Shown: positions 9,631-41,905 of the stretch, piece after piece | How positions within the stretch are numbered: the stretch's first letter is position 1 | Layout: each line of letters starts with the position of its first letter | NCBI GenBank assembly: GCA_026987115.1 | Contig: JALSNF010000036.1 | Coordinates: forward strand, 31,430 to 95,429 | Length of the DNA stretch: 64,000 bases | DNA from: Desulfurobacteriaceae bacterium | GTDB taxonomy: Bacteria; Aquificota; Aquificia; Desulfurobacteriales; Desulfurobacteriaceae | Direction of reading: 5' to 3' | Position numbers and translations under genes: made by a program | Notes under the pieces: model-generated | Told to the model about the DNA's origin: nothing | Database searches by the model: none | What the model saw: the letters and a program-made list of their open reading frames with translations, nothing else

Positions 9631-9707
9631 TGGAGCGGGCGACGGGATTCGAACCCGCGACCCTCAGCTTGGAAGGCTGATGCTCTAGCCAGCTGAGCTA
9701 CGCCCGC
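9631..9707 (-). tRNA. tRNA-Gly(TCC)
   Basis: Reverse complement GCGGGCGTAGCTCAGCTGG...CTTCCAA...GCGGGTTCGAATCCCGTCGCCCGCTCCA; encoded CCA. Confidence 0.96.
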
Positions 9708-9711
9708 TTCT

Positions 9712-9788
9712 TGGTTGCGGGGGCGGGATTTGAACCCGCGACCTCCGGGTTATGAGCCCGGCGAGCTACCGGACTGCTCTACCCCGCG
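9712..9788 (-). tRNA. initiator tRNA-fMet(CAT)
   Basis: CGCGGGGTAGAGCAGTCCGG...CCGGGCTCATAACCCGG...GGGTTCAAATCCCGCCCCCGCAACCA; C1/A72 mismatch and three G:C pairs at base of anticodon stem. Confidence 0.95.
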
Positions 9789-9792
9789 CCAG

Positions 9793-9878
9793 TGGTGGAG
9801 GGGGCAGGATTCGAACCTGCGTAGGCGTAAGCCGGCGGATTTACAGTCCGCTGCCTTTGACCACTCGGCCACCCCTCC
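9793..9878 (-). tRNA. tRNA-Tyr(GTA)
   Basis: GGAGGGGTGGCCGAGTGG...GCGGACTGTAAATCCGC, long variable arm, GGTTCGAATCCTGCCCCCTCCACCA. Confidence 0.95.
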
Positions 9879-9883
9879 ACTGC

Positions 9884-9960
9884 TGGTGCCGGCTGAGGGA
9901 ATCGAACCCCCGACCTGGTGATTACAAGTCACCCGCTCTAGCCAGCTGAGCTAAGCCGGC
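9884..9960 (-). tRNA. tRNA-Thr(TGT)
   Basis: GCCGGCTTAGCTCAGCTGG...GTGACTTGTAATCAC...GGGGGTTCGATTCCCTCAGCCGGCACCA. Confidence 0.96.
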
Positions 9961-10073: not shown

Positions 10074-10736
10074 ATGATAGACCTTCACACCCATACATTT
10101 TTCAGCGACGGAGCACTGATACCCAGCGAGCTGGTTAGGAGAGCAGAGGCTTTAGGCTACAGGGCTATAGCTATAACTGACCACGTTGACTATTCAAACT
10201 ATTCCTTCGTTTTAGAAAGGCTTTACTCTACACTGGAAGTCTTAAACGAGAACACTTCAGTAATAGTAATACCGGGAGTTGAAATTACCCACGTTCCCCC
10301 TCTTAAAATACCTGAGCTAATACAAAAGTGTAGGGAAGAAGGGGCAAAGTTGGTGGTGGTTCACGGAGAAACAATTGTAGAGCCTGTTTCTCCCGGAACT
10401 AACGAGGCTGCTATAGAGGGAAAGGCCGACGTACTTGCACATCCAGGCCTCATATCTGAAAGGGAGGTTAAGCTTGCAAGGGAAAATAAAGTATTCCTTG
10501 AGATAACTACAAGGAGAGGGCACAGCATTACAAACGGCCACGTTGCAAAGTTGGCATTAGAGGTAGGAGCAAAACTGGTTATAAATACCGACGCCCACTC
10601 CCCAGGAGACTTAGTAAGCAGGAGCTTTGCACTTAAAGTGGGGCTGGGAGCAGGCCTTTCACTAAAGGAGGTTGAGGAGTGTTTTTCAAACAGCGAAGGG
10701 ATTGTTAAAAGGTTGACTGGAAAAGGAAAACTTTAG
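10074..10736 (+). CDS. histidinol phosphate phosphatase/PHP-domain metal-dependent phosphoesterase
   Basis: MIDLHTHTFFSDGALIPSELVRRAEALGYRAIAITDHVD; PHP motifs. Confidence 0.9.
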   Translation: MIDLHTHTFFSDGALIPSELVRRAEALGYRAIAITDHVDYSNYSFVLERLYSTLEVLNENTSVIVIPGVEITHVPPLKIPELIQKCREEGAKLVVVHGETIVEPVSPGTNEAAIEGKADVLAHPGLISEREVKLARENKVFLEITTRRGHSITNGHVAKLALEVGAKLVINTDAHSPGDLVSRSFALKVGLGAGLSLKEVEECFSNSEGIVKRLTGKGKL

Positions 10737-10749
10737 AAATTTACTATCT

Positions 10750-10844
10750 GGAGGCGGAAGGGGGCTGGTGTCCCCCCCGGACTTCAAATCCGGTGGCCCC
10801 GCTAGGAGCGGGGTGGTGGGTTCGATTCCCATCCGCCTCCGCCA
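10750..10844 (+). tRNA. selC: tRNA-Sec(TCA), selenocysteine tRNA
   Basis: 8-bp acceptor GGAGGCGG/CCGCCTCC, long D stem GGGGG/CCCCC, anticodon loop CGGACTTCAAATCCG, long variable arm CCCCGC-TAGGA-GCGGGG, GGGTTCGATTCCCA, GCCA 3' end. Confidence 0.96.
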
Positions 10845-12152
10845 CTAAATTAGGGCCTTTTCCAATATCTCATCTAACCTTTTTATCCCCTTTAAAACTC
10901 TTAAACCGTTCTTTTGAGCTTCTTTTTCCCTTAGTTCTTCAAGTTTTACGCTCCTAACTTCTCCCGTTAAACCCAGCTCCCCAAAGAGGACAAGGTCCTC
11001 AGCAACAGGCCTTCCGTAGTAGCTTGAAGCTATTGCAGCAGCAACTGGAAGGTCAACTGCAGGCTCGTCAATTTTTACTCCACCAACTACATTTACAAAG
11101 ACGTCAAAGTTCCTTAAAGGAATTCCTAATTCTTTCTCAAGTAGAGCCACTATTATTGAGAGTCTGTTTTGGCTTATTCCTTTAGCTCTCCTTTGAGGAG
11201 TTGTAAAAACTGCTCTGGTAACGAGGGCTTGAACTTCTAATAGAACCGGTCTGCTTCCCTCTATGCCGGCAAAAACAACGCTCCCCGGCTTACCTAAAGG
11301 CCTCTCTGAGAGGAAAAAGGCCGAAGGGTTGGGAACTTCTTTTAAGCCCTTCTCTGTCATCTCAAAAACGGCAAGCTCCCCGGTATTACCAAACCTGTTT
11401 TTTAGGCTCTTTAGTATTCGGAAGTTGTAGCCCCTGTCTCCTTCAAGTTGGTAAACTGCGTCAACTATGTGCTCTAGGACCTTAGGCCCAGCAATGCTGC
11501 CCTCTTTTGTAACGTGGCCAACGATAAAGGAAGTAATTCCCTTGTCTTTTGAGAGGTTCGTTATGAAGGCTGCACACTCTCTAACCTGAGAAACTGAACC
11601 TGCCGCCGATTCAAGGTAGGGAAGGTAGAGGGTTTGAATAGAGTCAAAAACTGCAAAGAGAGGGGAGAGCTCCCTTAAAGCCTTTTCCACTTCTTCAAGG
11701 TTGTTTTCAGAAAGTATGTACAGGTTATCTCCGTTTACTCCGAGCCTCTCTGCTCTCATTGCAACCTGCTTTGGGGATTCCTCAGCAGTTATGTAAAGGA
11801 CTTTATCTCTTTTAGAAAAGACACTGCAAACCTGAAGTAAAAGAGTTGACTTTCCGATACCAGGCTCACCTGAAATTAGGGAAACAGAGTCCTTTACGAG
11901 GCCGCCTCCAAAAACTCTATCAAGCTCGCCTATTCCAGTCTTTAAACGCTCCTCTTCTTCCCACTCTATACGGGTGATGGGTAATGGCTTTTTCTGGGAG
12001 CTCCTTACCCAACCCCTTCTCTCTTTCCCTTTCTTACTAACGGTCTCCTCTACAAAGGAACCCCAAGCACCACAGTTGGGGCACCTCCCGCTCCACTTGG
12101 GGCTAACGTATCCACACTCTTGGCAAGTAAACTGGGAGCTTTTCTTAGCCAA
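10845..12152 (-). CDS. radA: DNA repair protein RadA
   Basis: CQECGYVSPKWSGRCPNCGAWGSF zinc finger, GEPGIGKSTLLLQ, KNRFG motif (SLKNRFGNTGE), Lon-like C-terminus. Confidence 0.97.
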   Translation of the reverse strand: MAKKSSQFTCQECGYVSPKWSGRCPNCGAWGSFVEETVSKKGKERRGWVRSSQKKPLPITRIEWEEEERLKTGIGELDRVFGGGLVKDSVSLISGEPGIGKSTLLLQVCSVFSKRDKVLYITAEESPKQVAMRAERLGVNGDNLYILSENNLEEVEKALRELSPLFAVFDSIQTLYLPYLESAAGSVSQVRECAAFITNLSKDKGITSFIVGHVTKEGSIAGPKVLEHIVDAVYQLEGDRGYNFRILKSLKNRFGNTGELAVFEMTEKGLKEVPNPSAFFLSERPLGKPGSVVFAGIEGSRPVLLEVQALVTRAVFTTPQRRAKGISQNRLSIIVALLEKELGIPLRNFDVFVNVVGGVKIDEPAVDLPVAAAIASSYYGRPVAEDLVLFGELGLTGEVRSVKLEELREKEAQKNGLRVLKGIKRLDEILEKALI

Positions 12153-22678: not shown

Positions 22679-23308
22679 CTACTTTACTCTCTGGAGGGCC
22701 TGCTCTCCTATCTTGACGCCTTCTTTAAAGGCATTCTTGTTTAAGTCTATAAACCTTGAAGGAACGCTTTTTTCTATAGCTCTTAGGAAGGAGTCTTCAG
22801 ATATGAGAGGTTTCCCGTCAAATTGGAGTTTTGTGGCAACTTGGAATACTCCAAGGGCAACTATGTTCATAACTTGCCTTCTTCCTAGAACTTCAGCAGC
22901 GGTTCTTGCAATGGGAGCTGAAACTATCCTGTACATATTGCAGTCTAAGTCGCACTTAACGAGGTCTTCGTCAACTATTACGAGAGCTCCCGGCTTTACG
23001 TTTACGAGAACATCTGCATCTGCTTCGCTACACTCAGGGTCAAGCCTAACGGGCTTTCCTTTGACCATGTCATCGTAAGCTTCTTGAGATTGAATTACTA
23101 CTGCGTCAAGCTCGGTCGTCTTAGGGAAGTCTATCTGTCTATCAGAGATTACAACGTCTCCCATTGAAACTCCACTTCTCATAGCAGCGCCGTAGGTTGC
23201 AGTTTGGGTTGCCCAAAGTCCCTCTTCAGCAGCAGCTGTTGCAAGGACAACCGCAGCAAGTATTGAACCTTGACCCGCCGAGCCTATAACCCTAACCTCA
23301 TACCTCAT
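22679..23308 (-). CDS. korC: 2-oxoglutarate (2-oxoacid):ferredoxin oxidoreductase gamma subunit
   Basis: VRVIGSAGQGSILAAVVLATAAAEEGLWATQTATYGAAMRSG. Confidence 0.88.
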   Translation of the reverse strand: MRYEVRVIGSAGQGSILAAVVLATAAAEEGLWATQTATYGAAMRSGVSMGDVVISDRQIDFPKTTELDAVVIQSQEAYDDMVKGKPVRLDPECSEADADVLVNVKPGALVIVDEDLVKCDLDCNMYRIVSAPIARTAAEVLGRRQVMNIVALGVFQVATKLQFDGKPLISEDSFLRAIEKSVPSRFIDLNKNAFKEGVKIGEQALQRVK

Positions 23309-24162
23309 TTTTCACCCCCAGAAAGAGCCTTTACTTTGCTCCAGTAAACTTCCGTGTACTCCGGCCTTGAATCGTCGTGATAGAGAAGGCCCCTTGGTAT
23401 TTTCCCTGCCCTTTTCTCTTCTGGCAATTTTTCCCAAGCTTTAACTGGAAGTGTGTTCTCTTTAAACCAGAAGTACATCTCCTCAAAGCTCATTCTGTTT
23501 TTCCTACCGTAAACGATAGTACATGGGGAAAGGACTTCTATTAGGGAAAAACCTTTGTGTTTAATTCCGTCCTTTATAAGCTTTTTAAGCTCCATTGCGT
23601 GGTACGCAGTTCCCCTAGCAACGTAAGTAGCCCCAGCAGCAATTGCAAGTTTCGCTATGTCAAACTGGGGCTCGTAGTTCCCGTAAGGGGTTGTAGTTGC
23701 GTAAGCCCCTTCAGGAGTGGTAGGTGAAACTTGACCTCCGGTCATACCGTATATCCAGTTGTTTATTAAGATAACGGTTAGGTCTATGTTCCTGCGGGCA
23801 GCGTGGATAAAGTGGTTTCCACCTATGGCAAGGGCGTCTCCGTCTCCTGTAAAGAGTATCGTAGTTAATTCTGGCCTTGCAAGCTTTAAGCCAGTTGCAA
23901 AGGCAGGTGCCCTTCCGTGGGTAGTGTGGAGGGTAAAGCCGTCAAAATAGCCGGGAGTTCTGGAAGAGCAGCCTATACCTGACACCATAGCAACTTGGTC
24001 ATTTGAAATCCCTAGCTCGTCTAGTGCCATACAGGTAGCTCTAAAAGCCTGTCCAATTCCGCAACCTGGGCACCAAATAGTAGGCATCTTGTTAAGGCGT
24101 AGGTATTTAAAGTAAGGCTTTTTCTCAACTATTTTCTCCATGGGTAGGTTGGGAGCTCCCAT
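23305..24162 (-). CDS. korB: 2-oxoglutarate (2-oxoacid):ferredoxin oxidoreductase beta subunit
   Basis: MPTIWCPGCGIGQAFRA, SGIGCSSRTPGYFDG, GDGDALAIGGNHFIHAARRN. Confidence 0.9.
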   Translation of the reverse strand: MGAPNLPMEKIVEKKPYFKYLRLNKMPTIWCPGCGIGQAFRATCMALDELGISNDQVAMVSGIGCSSRTPGYFDGFTLHTTHGRAPAFATGLKLARPELTTILFTGDGDALAIGGNHFIHAARRNIDLTVILINNWIYGMTGGQVSPTTPEGAYATTTPYGNYEPQFDIAKLAIAAGATYVARGTAYHAMELKKLIKDGIKHKGFSLIEVLSPCTIVYGRKNRMSFEEMYFWFKENTLPVKAWEKLPEEKRAGKIPRGLLYHDDSRPEYTEVYWSKVKALSGGEK

Positions 24163-25313
24163 TACTTACCTCCTTTAACGATTTCCTCTATCTTCGCCAA
24201 GATTTCGTGGGGATAGATAATCTTTCCGTTGGCCCTGTTAAGCCTGTAAACCGGAGCTTCTCCTTTAGCACACCTTTCAACTTCTAAAACGTACTGTCCC
24301 ATGTTTAGCTCAGGAACGAGTATTGCTTTAACGCTCTTTGCAAGCTCATAAAGGGTCTCTTCGGGAGAAGGCCAGATTGTTATGACCCTTAAAAGTCCGG
24401 CCTTAATTCCCTTTTCCCTTGCAAGGTCAACTGCAGTCTTGGCAGCCCTTGCAGTAGTTCCAAAGGCAACTATTGCAACTTCAGCGTCGTCAAGTTTATA
24501 AGCCTCGTTCCTTTCAAGCTCCTTCTGGCGGCTCTTTACTTTGTTTATGAGCCTCTCTATCAACTCTTGGCACATTTCAGGGTCCGTTGTTGGGAAACCG
24601 GTATAGTCGTGGTGAAGTCCCGTTGCGTGTCCCCTATACCCGGGAGTCCCGTAAGGAGCTATTGCAGGAACTCCGTCTTCTTCCGGTTTGTAGGGAAGGT
24701 ACTCTTCAGGAGGAACCTTAGGCATTTTCCTGTCCCATATCTCAACTTTTCCCTCTTCAAACTGCTCCATGTCAACGGTTTCCCTCATGTGCCCTAGAAC
24801 CTCGTCTAAAAGCAGGACAACGGGAGTCCTTAACCTTTCAGCCCAGTTAAAAGCCCTTATGGTCTCTTCCATTATCTCTTGAACGTTTCCAGGGTAGAAA
24901 ACCGGAATCATCTTATCGCCGTGGGTTCCCCAAAGGGACTGCATTATCTCCTGCTGGCCAACTTGAGTGGGAAGACCTGTTGACGGACCTCCCCTTTGAA
25001 CGTTTACAACGACGCAGGGAGCCTCTACCATAAAGGCGTAGCCCAAGTTTTCCTGCTTTAGTGAGAAGCCGGGACCAGATGTTGCAGTCATAGCCTTTAA
25101 GCCAGCGAAGGAACCCCCTACAGTTGCTCCCATTGCAGCAATTTCATCCTCCATCTGGATAAAAACTCCTCCCTTTTTGGGAAGGAGCTCTGCCATCTTC
25201 TCTGCAATTTCAGAAGAGGGGGTAATTGGATAACCTGCGTAAAACCTACAGCCGGCTAAAACTGCAGCTTCGGCACAGGCGTGGTTTCCATACTTAAGCT
25301 CAAGCTTAGCCAT
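24162..25313 (-). CDS. korA: 2-oxoglutarate (2-oxoacid):ferredoxin oxidoreductase alpha subunit
   Basis: GCRFYAGYPITPSSEIAEKMAELLP, ATSGPGFSLKQENLGYA. Confidence 0.9.
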   Translation of the reverse strand: MAKLELKYGNHACAEAAVLAGCRFYAGYPITPSSEIAEKMAELLPKKGGVFIQMEDEIAAMGATVGGSFAGLKAMTATSGPGFSLKQENLGYAFMVEAPCVVVNVQRGGPSTGLPTQVGQQEIMQSLWGTHGDKMIPVFYPGNVQEIMEETIRAFNWAERLRTPVVLLLDEVLGHMRETVDMEQFEEGKVEIWDRKMPKVPPEEYLPYKPEEDGVPAIAPYGTPGYRGHATGLHHDYTGFPTTDPEMCQELIERLINKVKSRQKELERNEAYKLDDAEVAIVAFGTTARAAKTAVDLAREKGIKAGLLRVITIWPSPEETLYELAKSVKAILVPELNMGQYVLEVERCAKGEAPVYRLNRANGKIIYPHEILAKIEEIVKGGK

Positions 25314-25571: not shown

Positions 25572-26474
25572 TTAAAGGAGACCTCTTTCCTTAAGAGCTC
25601 TCTCCATAACCTCTCCTATCTCTGCAGGAGTGTTGCAAACATAAGCACCTGCTTCTCTTAGAGCCTCCATTTTACTTTTTGCGTCTCCCTTACCGCCGGA
25701 GATTATCGCACCGGCATGTCCCATACGCCTTCCAGGGGGAGCGGTCACGCCGGCTATGTAAGCTACAACCGGCTTTTTAACATTTTCTTTAATGTACTCT
25801 GCAGCTTCTTCTTCCATAGTTCCGCCTATCTCTCCTATTAAGACTATTGCGTCGGTTTCAGGGTCGTTGTTAAACATCTCTACCGCTTCCTTGTGGGTAG
25901 TCCCGGGAACAGGGTCTCCTCCTATACCTATAACTGTTGACTGGCCTATCCCCCTTGCAGTTAACTGGTAAGCAGCTTCGTAAGTTAAAGTTCCAGAGCG
26001 GGAAACTATTCCAACCCTTCCCTTTTTAAAGATGTGGCCCGGCATTATCCCCATCTTACACTCTTCAGGAGTTATAACTCCCGGACAGTTGGGCCCTACA
26101 TACCTTACTCCGGTTCCTTCAAGGGCTCTTTTAACCTTTACCATATCATTAACAGGTATCCCTTCTGTAATACACACTATAACCTTTATCCCGGCATCAG
26201 CTGCTTCCATTATTGCGTCGGCGGCAAAAGGAGGAGGAACGAATATCAAAGAGGCATTAGCTCCAGTCTCTTTTACCGCTTCCTCAACGGTGTTGAAAAC
26301 GGGCACGCTGTACTTTCCCTCTTCATCACTCCAGACAAGGCCACCTTTGCCGGGAGTCACTCCCGCAACTATCTGGGTTCCGTAGTCTAAACACTGTTTA
26401 GCGTGGAAAGAGCCTTCCCTTCCAGTTAAACCTTGGACTACAACTTTAGTGTTTCTATCTATTAAAACGCTCAT
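25572..26474 (-). CDS. sucD: succinate-CoA ligase alpha subunit
   Basis: [54 protein letters not shown]. Confidence 0.96.
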
Positions 26475-26488
26475 TTTCGCCTCCCCTT

Positions 26489-27661
26489 TTAGATTTCTCC
26501 TCTTGCTGCTTTTACTGCTTTTTGTGCTCCGTCTGCCATATCTTTTGCAGGAATTATGTTAAGGCCGCTCTCTTCAAGCATTTTCCTTCCAATTTCAACG
26601 TTGGTCCCCTCAAGTCTTACTATTAAAGGCCTGTCAAGCTCAACCTGTTTAGCCGCTTCTATTATCCCCCCTGCAATCCTGTCGCACCTTACTATTCCGC
26701 CAAATATGTTTACGAAAATTGCCTTTACCTTCGGGTCAGAAAGGAGCAGTTTAAAGGCCGCCGCAACTCTCTCAACAGTTGCAGTTCCCCCAACGTCAAG
26801 GAAGTTTGCAGGCTCTCCTCCGTAGAACTTAATCGTGTCCATAGTAGCCATTGCAAGGCCGGCTCCGTTAACCATACAACCTATGTTCCCGTCAAGTTTT
26901 ACGTAGTTTAAGTCCCACTTCTTGGCTTCAAGCTCAAGAGGGTCTATCTGGGTAGTATCTTCAAGCTCTTGAACTTTCGGGTGGCGGTATAGGGCGTTGT
27001 CGTCAAAGTCTATTTTCGCGTCAAGACAGATGAAGTTGTCTTCTTTGGTTTTAACTAAAGGGTTTATCTCAATTAAAGAGGCGTCAAGCTCAAAGTACAT
27101 CTTTGAAAGGGTGTTTAATATCTTTACAAACTGGTTTACAAGTTTCCTGTCTGTAAGTCCTATCTTGAAAGCGATTTTTCTTGCTTGGTAGGGTAGGAGC
27201 TCCCCCATAGCCGGGTCAACGTGCTCCTTTATTATCAGTTCCGGGTTAGTTTTGGCTATCTCTTCAATCTCCATTCCCCCTGCAGCAGAGACCATAAAGA
27301 CTGGACGGGAAGTTTCCCTATCAAGGGTTAAACCTACATAAAACTCCTTGTCTATGTTTACTCCTTCCTCAATTAAAACGCAGTTTATAGGAAGACCTTC
27401 AGGGTTTTGATAGGTTTTAAGCCTGCTCCCTATCATCTGAGCGGCTATCTTGGCAGCCTCTTCAGGGCTCTTTGCCAGCTTAACTCCACCTGCTTTTCCC
27501 CTTCCTCCTGCGTGAACTTGAGCCTTTACTACAACAACAGGAGTTCCAAGTTCTTTAGCGGCCCTTTCCGCTTCGTGGGCGTTGTGAACTACAATTCCCC
27601 TTGGAATTGGAAGTCCGTAATCCTTAAAGATTTCCTTTGCTTGATACTCGTGTATTTTCAT
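26489..27661 (-). CDS. sucC: succinate-CoA ligase beta subunit (ADP/GDP-forming)
   Basis: [41 protein letters not shown]; start moved from 27700. Confidence 0.96.
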
Positions 27662-27716
27662 TTCCTCTCCTCCGCTTGAGGTTGATAAACATTTTAACAA
27701 ACTTTTTACAGAATTT

Positions 27717-30308: not shown

Positions 30309-31541
30309 TTAACTGTCAGGAAGGGCTCTAACCAAGAGGTCTGCTATGTGAAGGGATTTAACTTTAGAGTCTATCCTTTCTAAACCTTCTGCAATGTTCA
30401 TAACGCAACCGGGACACTCTGTTAAGACGAAATCTGCTCTTGTCTTGTCTATGTTCCTTGCCTTTTTCAACTGTATTTCCCTTGAAATCTGAGGGTGAGA
30501 GAGTTTAAAGGAGCCTCCCATGCCACAGCAGTTGTCTGCCTCTTCTAGGGGAACAAACTCTGCATTTTTTAGGACTTTAAGGACATCAAGGGGATAGTTT
30601 CTCGGGATTTTCTGACCCCTAACTATGTGGCAAGGGTGGTGCCAGGTTAACTTTAGCTTTTCTGGGAGCTCCCACTTCCCAATCTCCTCTATGTTCTCAA
30701 AGAGAACCTCTATTAGCTCCCTTACCTTAAAAGGGAGCTCTTTATACTCCTTCTTTAAAACGTGGCCGCAGGTTGCACAGGCAGTAATCACGAAATCTGC
30801 CTCTTGACGGCTCAAACCCTTTAAGTTCTTATTCTTCATCTTTTCAAAGCTCTTTAAATCACCTGAGAAGAAGGCTGGAGCTCCGCAACAGTACTGCTCT
30901 TTAGGAACCAAAACAGAGTACCCAAGAGCGTTTAAAACTTTAACTACGCTCTCGGCAGTTTCAGAGTAGAAGTTGTTAAACATACACCCCGTAAAAAAGA
31001 GGACTTTAGCCCTCTCCTTCCCTTTAGCCGGGAAAAACCTATCCTCGTAGTTAAAAGGTCTTGCCTTTATCTCGGGGAGGAGGACCTTGCCCAACTTTGG
31101 AACTTTAAAGGGTAAGAGTCTGTTGTAGGGGCTTTTTGAAGACTTAGTGAAAAACCTACTTAAGGGAGCCGTTAACTTTCCTACGGTTTCAAGTAGTTTC
31201 CTGTTTGAAAAGAGCTTTATTGCAGCCCTCTTTTCAGGGCTTATACCCACCTTTTCAGCAGCAAGGGCCCTTGCAGAGATTATTATCTTCTCGTAGTCAA
31301 CCATAACAGGGCAGATTTCCTCACACCTTAAGCAGGTAGTGCACAGGTTAAAGAAGTCTGCAATCTCTTTGTTTACCTCTACCTTCCCTTTGTTTATCAT
31401 GTCTGCAAGGAAAATCTTTCCCCTTGCAACTGACGGCTCCTCTTTGGTTATGTTAAATACAGGACAAACTTGCCTACAGGAACCGCACCTTACGCACTTT
31501 TCTAAGAGCTCCTGTGAAATCCCTAAAACTCTATCTGCCAT
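30309..31541 (-). CDS. (Fe-S)-binding protein with CCG domains (GlcF/HdrB-like)
   Basis: CVRCGSCRQVCPVFN, CTTCLRCEEICPV, two CCG motifs (CCGAPAFFSGD, CCGMGGSFKLSHP). Confidence 0.88.
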   Translation of the reverse strand: MADRVLGISQELLEKCVRCGSCRQVCPVFNITKEEPSVARGKIFLADMINKGKVEVNKEIADFFNLCTTCLRCEEICPVMVDYEKIIISARALAAEKVGISPEKRAAIKLFSNRKLLETVGKLTAPLSRFFTKSSKSPYNRLLPFKVPKLGKVLLPEIKARPFNYEDRFFPAKGKERAKVLFFTGCMFNNFYSETAESVVKVLNALGYSVLVPKEQYCCGAPAFFSGDLKSFEKMKNKNLKGLSRQEADFVITACATCGHVLKKEYKELPFKVRELIEVLFENIEEIGKWELPEKLKLTWHHPCHIVRGQKIPRNYPLDVLKVLKNAEFVPLEEADNCCGMGGSFKLSHPQISREIQLKKARNIDKTRADFVLTECPGCVMNIAEGLERIDSKVKSLHIADLLVRALPDS

Positions 31542-38240: not shown

Positions 38241-38842
38241 TTTACCCTGAAAACCTTGAAATTCTAATAGAGTTCCTCTCAGAGGTTCCGGGTATAAGCG
38301 AAAGGGCCGCCGAAAGGGCAGTCCTTCAGCTGTCTAAACTTCCCCAAGAAAGGAGAAGGATTGTCGTAAACGCTTTAAAAGAGCTTGAAGAGCTAAAACC
38401 TTGCAAAGAGTGTGGACTTCCGTCAAAAGAGGAGCTCTGCTACGTGTGCACAGACCCAGAAAGGGATAGGAAGACAGTCTTGGTAGTAGAACAGCCGAGA
38501 GACGCAGTATCAATTGAGAAACTGGGAGAATACAAGGGACTCTACCACGTTTTAGGAGGCGTAATATCTCCGCTGGAAGACATTTCCCCGGAAGACCTTA
38601 ACATAGAAAACCTCTTTAAAAGGATAAGAAAAAGGAGCATAGAGAAGGTCATAATAGCCGTAAACCCCACCGTAGAAGGTGAAGCAACGGCAAAGTTCCT
38701 TACAGACAGGCTAACAAAGCTGGGAGTTAAGGTCTATAGGATAGGATACGGAATACCTTACGGAGGAACCATAGACTCTTCAGACGAACTAACACTAAGG
38801 AAAGCCCTTGAAGACATGAAACTTATATCTGGAGGAGAGTAA
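38237..38842 (+). CDS. recR: recombination mediator protein RecR
   Basis: PGISERAAERAVLQL, CKECGLPSKEELCYVCTDPERD zinc motif, TOPRIM; TTG start overlapping ybaB stop. Confidence 0.96.
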   Translation: MIYPENLEILIEFLSEVPGISERAAERAVLQLSKLPQERRRIVVNALKELEELKPCKECGLPSKEELCYVCTDPERDRKTVLVVEQPRDAVSIEKLGEYKGLYHVLGGVISPLEDISPEDLNIENLFKRIRKRSIEKVIIAVNPTVEGEATAKFLTDRLTKLGVKVYRIGYGIPYGGTIDSSDELTLRKALEDMKLISGGE

Positions 38843-39408
38843 TGATAGAAATAAGGTGGCACGCCCGAGGAGGTCAGGGAGCCGTAACGGCTTCAAAGAT
38901 TTTAGCCTCTTCAGTAATTAGAGAAGGGAAATACGCCCAGAGCAACCCAGATTACGGAGCGGAGCGTTCAGGAGCTCCCTTAAGAACCTACAACAGAGTC
39001 TCTGAAAAGCCAATAACCCTCCACTGCATGGTCTTAAACCCTGACATAGTTGTAGTAGTTGACCCAACCCTCCTTAAAACTGTTCCCTTCTTAGAGGGAA
39101 CAGACGAAAACGCAATCCTTGTGATAAATACAAACAAAACCCCCGCTGAGGTCAGAGAGAAGTACAAAATAGAGGGAAGGAAGATATACACAGTTGACGC
39201 AACCAAAATAGCGATGGAAGAGCTTAAAAGACCCCTTATGAACGTTCCAATGCTGGGAGCTCTGGTAAAAGTTCTAGGAGACATAGTTAAAATAGAGACA
39301 GTAGAAGAAGACCTTAAGAAAACCTTTGGGAAGAAGCTATCAGAGAATGCCCTAAACGCAAACATAAGGGCACTACACAGAGCCTACAAGGAGGTAACGG
39401 CAGAATGA
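38842..39408 (+). CDS. porC: pyruvate:ferredoxin oxidoreductase gamma subunit
   Basis: MIEIRWHARGGQGAVTASKILASSVIREGKYAQSNPDYGAERSGAPL. Confidence 0.93.
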   Translation: MIEIRWHARGGQGAVTASKILASSVIREGKYAQSNPDYGAERSGAPLRTYNRVSEKPITLHCMVLNPDIVVVVDPTLLKTVPFLEGTDENAILVINTNKTPAEVREKYKIEGRKIYTVDATKIAMEELKRPLMNVPMLGALVKVLGDIVKIETVEEDLKKTFGKKLSENALNANIRALHRAYKEVTAE

Positions 39409-39701
39409 TGGGGAAAAGCTGGAAAGAGATGCCAATAGGTGCAGTAATACCTGAACCAGGCTCAAGCGAAAAGTACAACACGGGAGAGTGGAGAGCTTGG
39501 AGGCCGGTTTTTGAGGCCCAAAAGTGCGTCAACTGCATGCTCTGCTGGGTATTCTGTCCAGACTCCTGCATCTTGGTAAAAGAAGAGAAAATGGTGGGAA
39601 TTGACTACGAGCACTGCAAAGGGTGCGGGATATGTGCCCACGAGTGTCCAACGAAGGCACTTGAGATGAAACCAGAATACCTGTTCCGCGAGGAGGACTA
39701 A
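39405..39701 (+). CDS. porD: pyruvate:ferredoxin oxidoreductase delta subunit (2x[4Fe-4S])
   Basis: CVNCMLCWVFCPDSCI and CKGCGICAHECPTKAL. Confidence 0.93.
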   Translation: MMGKSWKEMPIGAVIPEPGSSEKYNTGEWRAWRPVFEAQKCVNCMLCWVFCPDSCILVKEEKMVGIDYEHCKGCGICAHECPTKALEMKPEYLFREED

Positions 39702-39703
39702 CC

Positions 39704-40912
39704 ATGAGGCCTGAACTGATAAAAGAGATAACATACGTTCCCTACTCAGGGAACATGGCCGCAGCAGAGGCAATGAGGCAGATAAACCCTGACGTTGTAG
39801 CTGCATACCCAATAACCCCTCAAACGGAGCTCATGCAGTTCTTTGCAGACTTTGTAGCCAACGGCCTTGTTGACACAGAGTACATCCCAGTTGAAAGTGA
39901 GCACTCTGCAATGTCTGCGTGCGTTGGAGCTGCAGCTTCAGGTGCAAGAGCCATGACGGCAACCGCAGGGCCGGGACTTGCCTACATGTGGGAAGTTTTA
40001 GGAATAGCCTCTGGAATGAGACTTCCCATAGTTATGACGGTAGTTAACAGAGCCCTTTCTGCTCCCATAAACATCCACGGAGACCAGTCAGACGCAATGG
40101 GAGCAAGGGACCAAGGTTGGATAATGCTTTTCTCAGAAAACGCCGAAGAGCAATACGACAACCTAATTCAGGCCTTTAAAATCGCAGAGGACGAAAGGAC
40201 AAGGCTTCCGGTAATGGTAGGAATGGACGGCTTTGTCATATCCCACTCAATAGAAAGAGTGAGGCTCCTTCCAGATAAAGCAGTAGAAGAGTTTATCGGA
40301 GAGACCAAAGTAATGTATCCCCTTTTAGATGTTGAAAACCCGGTTACCCACGGCCCAGTAGCAATGACAGACTCTTACATGGAGTTTAAAAGACAGCAGA
40401 GAGAAGCGATGATGGAGGCCTACAAAGTAATTAGGGAAGTAGGCCAACAGTTTGAAGAGGCTTTTGGAAAGAAGTACGAGCACATAGAGACATACAAAAT
40501 AGACGACGCAGACTACGTGCTGATAATCATAGGGTCAACGGCCGGAACTGCAAAGTTCGTAATAGACAAGTTAAGGGAAGAAAAGGGCATAAAGGTAGGA
40601 CTAATAAAAATCAGGACCTACAGACCTTTCCCCTACTACGACGTTATGGACGCCCTTGAAAGCTCAAACTGTAAAGCAGTAGGTGTTTTTGACAGGGCAG
40701 AAACCTTCGGAGCGGTAGGAGGCCCCCTTTACAGCGACGTAGCTACCGCAATGCACCTGAGGGGAAAACTTTACCCAATAGTGAGCTTCATATACGGCTT
40801 AGGAGGAAGAGATACAAACGTGCACCACATTGAAGAGGCAATAGACAAGGTTATGCAAAAAGCCGCAGGGAAAGAAGTTCCACTAATTAACTACCTTAAC
40901 CTTAAAGAGTAA
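39704..40912 (+). CDS. porA: pyruvate:ferredoxin oxidoreductase alpha subunit
   Basis: SGNMAAAEAMRQINPDVVAAYPITPQTELMQFFADF, ATAGPGLAYMWEVLGIASGMRLPIVM. Confidence 0.95.
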   Translation: MRPELIKEITYVPYSGNMAAAEAMRQINPDVVAAYPITPQTELMQFFADFVANGLVDTEYIPVESEHSAMSACVGAAASGARAMTATAGPGLAYMWEVLGIASGMRLPIVMTVVNRALSAPINIHGDQSDAMGARDQGWIMLFSENAEEQYDNLIQAFKIAEDERTRLPVMVGMDGFVISHSIERVRLLPDKAVEEFIGETKVMYPLLDVENPVTHGPVAMTDSYMEFKRQQREAMMEAYKVIREVGQQFEEAFGKKYEHIETYKIDDADYVLIIIGSTAGTAKFVIDKLREEKGIKVGLIKIRTYRPFPYYDVMDALESSNCKAVGVFDRAETFGAVGGPLYSDVATAMHLRGKLYPIVSFIYGLGGRDTNVHHIEEAIDKVMQKAAGKEVPLINYLNLKE

Positions 40913-40924
40913 TGGAGGAAAAAG

Positions 40925-41905
40925 ATGGCTCAGACTCAAACTTCAGCTATAAAACTGCCGCCCCTTAAAAAGCTTACCAACTACCCAGAAAAGCTTGCAC
41001 CGGGCCACAGGCTCTGTGCAGGGTGCGGAGCTTCAATAATAATCCGCCAAATGTACATGGTTGCAAACGCTCTAGGCTACGAGCTAATCTGGGCAAACGC
41101 AACAGGATGCGTAGAGGTTTGTACAACCGTTTACCCTTACACCTCTTGGAAGTCCCCATGGATTCACAACGCTTTTGAAAACGCAGCTGCAACAATTTCC
41201 GGAGTTGAAGCAGCCTACAAAGCCCTAAAGAAAAAGGGGAAACTCCCAACAGACAAGAAAGTTAAGTTTGTAGCCCTTGGAGGAGACGGAGGAACCGCAG
41301 ACATAGGATTTCAGTCCCTATCAGGGGCTTTAGAAAGGGGACACGACTTTATCTACGTGTGCTACGACAACGAAGCTTACATGAACACAGGAATTCAACG
41401 CTCTTCAGCAACTCCAAAATACGCAAACACCACAACTCAACCTGTAGGTTCAGAGAGCTTAGGAAAACCTCAACACAAAAAGTGGCTACCTGAAGTTGCA
41501 GCTGCCCACGGCATTCCCTACGTGGCTCAAGTCTCGCCTTCACACTGGAAAGACCTTATGGAGAAGTTTAAAAAGGCACTCTTAACGGAAGGACCCTCTT
41601 TTATCAACGCCTTTACCGTCTGCCCGAGGGGATGGAGAACGAAAGAGGAAGAGGGAATGTTAGTTGCAAGGCTTGCGGTAGAAACCAACTACTGGCCCCT
41701 CTTTGAGGTTGAAAACGGAAAGTGGAGAATAACTTACAGACCTAGAAATCCTAAACCCTTAGAAGAGTACCTTAAGATACAAGGAAGGTTCAAACATTTG
41801 TTTAAACCGGAAAATAAGGGTAAAATTGAAGAACTTCAGCAAGAAGTTAACAGGCATTGGGATTGGCTTAACAAGATGGAAGAACTAACCAATAGGGAAG
41901 AGTGA
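40925..41905 (+). CDS. porB: pyruvate:ferredoxin oxidoreductase beta subunit
   Basis: LAPGHRLCAGCGASIIIRQM, ANATGCVEVCTTVYPYTSWKSPWIH, GGDGGTADIGFQSLSGALERGHDFIYVCYDNEAYMNTG. Confidence 0.96.
   Translation: MAQTQTSAIKLPPLKKLTNYPEKLAPGHRLCAGCGASIIIRQMYMVANALGYELIWANATGCVEVCTTVYPYTSWKSPWIHNAFENAAATISGVEAAYKALKKKGKLPTDKKVKFVALGGDGGTADIGFQSLSGALERGHDFIYVCYDNEAYMNTGIQRSSATPKYANTTTQPVGSESLGKPQHKKWLPEVAAAHGIPYVAQVSPSHWKDLMEKFKKALLTEGPSFINAFTVCPRGWRTKEEEGMLVARLAVETNYWPLFEVENGKWRITYRPRNPKPLEEYLKIQGRFKHLFKPENKGKIEELQQEVNRHWDWLNKMEELTNREE

Follow-up and report, generated by a model that had tools for sequence, protein, structure and literature searches.

A selenocysteine tRNA gene in a Desulfurobacteriaceae genome and the candidate targets of its UGA decoding

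The selC locus and its neighbours

The window (the whole 64-kb stretch of DNA analysed here), from a thermophilic member of the Desulfurobacteriaceae, carries at 10750..10844, on the + strand, a selenocysteine tRNA gene, selC, with anticodon UCA. It is 95 nt long including the encoded CCA, and was identified by ARAGORN, by Rfam family RF01852 and by covariation. A gene for a PHP-domain protein, classed as histidinol phosphate phosphatase domain-containing (NF004981; NCBIfam score of 320 bits against a cut-off of 117, with a Pfam PHP match), lies upstream at 10074..10736 (+), separated from selC by 13 nt. On the other side, a convergent radA/sms-like open reading frame (10845..12152, −; name read from sequence) has its stop codon directly abutting the tRNA 3′ end, while a Gly-Met-Tyr-Thr tRNA cluster (9631..9960, −; ARAGORN) is divergent from the PHP–selC pair. 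Given the 13 nt gap, selC would likely be transcribed from this pair and then processed. Near selC, pattern scans returned neither a terminator nor, on the + strand, anything resembling a promoter; we count this as weak evidence.

A part for the neighbouring phosphatase in selenocysteine metabolism could be proposed from the fact that, of 19 other family loci, 11 have the PHP gene adjoining selC. However, it was not found adjacent at the other eight (at one of which, L027, the contig extends just 515 bases upstream), and among the 80 nearest PHP homologues in genome contigs, 75 lack a tRNA-Sec in the flanking sequence retrieved. On these locus counts and homologue flanks we reject a functional link, and such a role seems to us very improbable. 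The tRNA-Sec stands right behind only the five closest homologues, which come from Desulfurobacteriaceae and Thermovibrio MAGs (four at 81–82% and one at 73% identity), and the PHP–selC order is therefore one of family synteny. By these nearest named matches, the window's genome would itself belong to the Desulfurobacteriaceae. As for radA, it lies directly behind selC at 7 of the 19 other loci, and at locus L031 it matches further off. We read the PHP–selC–radA order, common to part of the family, as synteny and not as function.

Elsewhere in the window, two separate gene clusters of the 2-oxoacid:ferredoxin oxidoreductase type (22679–25313 and 38842–41905) and succinyl-CoA synthetase-like genes (25572–27700) were named from their sequences. 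Together they would fit, as expected, an organism with a reductive TCA cycle.

Identity and fold of the tRNA

ARAGORN reports tRNA-SeC(tca) at 10750–10844 (+), exactly the coordinates noted earlier. The Rfam model RF01852 matches 10750–10840 over its full length (1–91) with 81.4 bits (E = 3.1e-15), against a gathering cut-off of 47 bits. The earlier note had described the hallmarks of a bacterial tRNA-Sec at this place and had named a failure of covariance-model scoring as what would speak against them; the scoring was run, the gene lies above the cut-off, and the hallmarks are borne out by ARAGORN, by the score and by covariation in the family. A discriminator G (G73), the encoded CCA, the UCA anticodon and a long variable arm are all found in selC, as are an 8-bp acceptor, a 5-bp T stem and a 6-bp D stem with a 4-nt loop.

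These features also bear on whether a long-variable-arm tRNA-Ser or tRNA-Leu has been misread as tRNA-Sec. Other tRNAs do match the Rfam model in the family genome search, but weakly, up to about 45 bits. The score of selC, its anticodon complementary to UGA, its D stem and loop, and its 13-bp acceptor/T stack refute a tRNA-Ser or tRNA-Leu identity, which we give practically no chance.

The cloverleaf is supported by the family alignment, which comprises 16 distinct tRNA-Sec sequences drawn on the bacterial 8+5 structure with a 6-bp D stem. All 496 of 496 cells over its 31 pairs are paired (100%), every pair of the 13-bp acceptor/T stack (8+5) is formed, and eight pairs show changes on both sides. 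None of 500 shuffles scored as high, and slid versions of the cloverleaf fell to 47–63% paired. The fold energy of the single sequence lies 3.3 sd below that of shuffles (z = −3.3). Its minimum-energy fold is 9+4, with A9 paired to U83; in the bacterial 8+5 drawing, U83 pairs with G67 instead. Since A9, G67 and U83 are all invariant in the family alignment, the two are equally compatible by sequence. The fold established for bacterial tRNA-Sec is 8+5, with a 13-bp acceptor/T stack (PMC5330540).

Known bacterial tRNA-Sec, such as that of Thermovibrio ammonificans and Desulfurobacterium thermolithotrophum, likewise has the UCA anticodon, the 8-bp acceptor and the 5-bp T stem, and the likeness extends to the 6-bp D stem with its 4-nt loop, the long variable arm, the G discriminator and the encoded CCA. 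We see no notable difference from it; among genera of the family, the variable arm differs, as do a few pairs in the helices. We conclude, with a probability of about 97%, that selC is an intact, ordinary bacterial selenocysteine tRNA gene.

Decoding machinery and UGA targets

In bacteria, SerRS charges tRNA-Sec with serine, SelA converts it to Sec-tRNA using the selenophosphate made by SelD, and SelB delivers the Sec-tRNA to UGA codons that have a bSECIS hairpin behind them. The earlier note had held that the tRNA implies UGA recoding through SelA, SelB and SelD, that none of the three is encoded in the window, and that their absence from the genome would count against the proposal. Profile searches of the window's genome (G000, 91.5% complete) found all three on other contigs and above their curated cut-offs: SelB on C28 (440.8 bits against 242), SelA on C45 (620.2 against 268) and SelD on C26 (364.1 against 125), the last with one internal TGA. 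UGA recoding by this route is thus supported, with selD as one target. The product of selC would be an ordinary tRNA-Sec working by the established route; from the genes, we infer its expression, processing and charging, and the actual insertion of selenocysteine.

With the TGA read as U, the N-terminus of SelD is MSRKFKLTQTVRASGUGAKLSP, and the in-frame UGA falls in the motif RASGUGAK, at the known catalytic position of SelD. The TGA is present in 21 of 21 full-length SelD matches in the family; the 22nd match is a fragment of the C-terminal part only. A hairpin, AGCCC-GGUC-GGGCU, begins 12 nt after the UGA, and its loop is presumably similar to that of the E. coli fdhF element, likewise GGUC. 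All 13 aligned sequences preserve the stem, with a double change in one of its five pairs, a thin covariation; this being coding sequence with few changes, the conservation would amount to modest evidence. The in-frame UGA and the bSECIS-like hairpin together support the reading that selD itself would be a selenoprotein gene.

These results weigh on the possibility that selC is a relic, decayed or without function, or that it suppresses UGA with a different amino acid. Such a reading might draw on the single selenoprotein found in the genome and on a formate dehydrogenase that has Cys, but every helix of the tRNA is intact and covaries in the family, selA, selB and selD are all intact, and selD needs UGA decoding for its own synthesis. 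We consider a relic or suppressor extremely improbable.

To sample the selenoproteome, family searches covered molybdopterin oxidoreductases (including formate dehydrogenase), [NiFe] hydrogenases and SelD. Formate dehydrogenase, hydrogenase and HesB-like proteins had been guessed earlier as targets, a guess that for the most part does not hold for this genome, in which formate dehydrogenase and the [NiFe] hydrogenases carry Cys. A formate dehydrogenase-like gene on the window's contig but outside the window (C36:15543-17555, L160; best family TIGR01591, though below cut-off) reads ...NCARICHAPS..., with TGC for Cys. At the same site, two relatives (G009 and G015) have ...HCARLUHAPT..., in which U is encoded by a TGA that is followed by a GGUC hairpin. 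In two further relatives (G020 and G006), a longer gene resembling formate dehydrogenase contains a TGA; no counterpart was found in the window's genome, though this may be incomplete. Cys motifs, and no stops, are seen in the [NiFe] hydrogenases found in the genome. Of the molybdopterin proteins outside the window, a formate dehydrogenase-like one (L035) has Cys, a NapA-like fragment (L037) ends at the contig end, and two more (L036 and L038) have open frames with no TGA. Among the molybdopterin oxidoreductases, formate dehydrogenase included, and the [NiFe] hydrogenases, no selenoprotein was found to add to SelD.

A read-through scan of the 64-kb window gave no convincing UGA-interrupted gene, in agreement with the earlier finding of no clear selenoprotein there. 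No entry came from the strict version. A looser one picked up the selD control but missed the two formate dehydrogenase controls taken from other genera, a sign of limited sensitivity. Its entries were mostly short frames overlapping annotated genes, and a candidate at 23314 (−) with a long downstream frame was rejected, as it only leads to the ATG (23308) of the gene that follows. At 30309–31541 (−), the window also encodes a GlpC/HdrD-like CCG-domain iron–sulphur protein in a frame without UGA; Sec members of this family exist elsewhere.

The window's genome also encodes MnmH, the selenouridine synthase. SelD is the one output shown; it would also supply MnmH, and further selenoproteins may exist. 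SelD as the single selenoprotein in YbbB-containing species was described in 2006 (PMC1794560), and every component of that Sec-decoding trait, with Sec-SelD and MnmH/YbbB, is also found here. It is a tentative suggestion, and in our judgement rather an unlikely one, that the whole Sec machinery of this lineage is kept for SelD alone, Sec-SelD serving its own synthesis and the selenouridine modification of tRNA, with formate dehydrogenase in its Cys form.

Distribution in the family

Across the family genome set (n = 22, the window's own included), tRNA-Sec was found above cut-off in 20 genomes, and selA and selD in 21 each. The two genomes with no tRNA-Sec above cut-off, G021 (99% complete) and G006, have yet kept selA and a UGA-containing selD. 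Because the close PHP neighbour gene is missing from both as well, we read the missing selC as probably due to a shared assembly gap, and not as a sign of some other mechanism.

A tRNA-Sec was reported for both T. ammonificans and D. thermolithotrophum in 2014 (PMC4227106), and for the former again in 2017 (PMC5441870). A tRNA-Sec in the Desulfurobacteriaceae is thus already known, a textbook case and not a discovery, and the presence of the Sec-decoding trait throughout the family, confirmed here, carries little weight as such. Every full-length selD contains a UGA, and formate dehydrogenase is of the Cys form in some genomes and of the Sec form in others; this adds a small datum on what keeps the trait alive.
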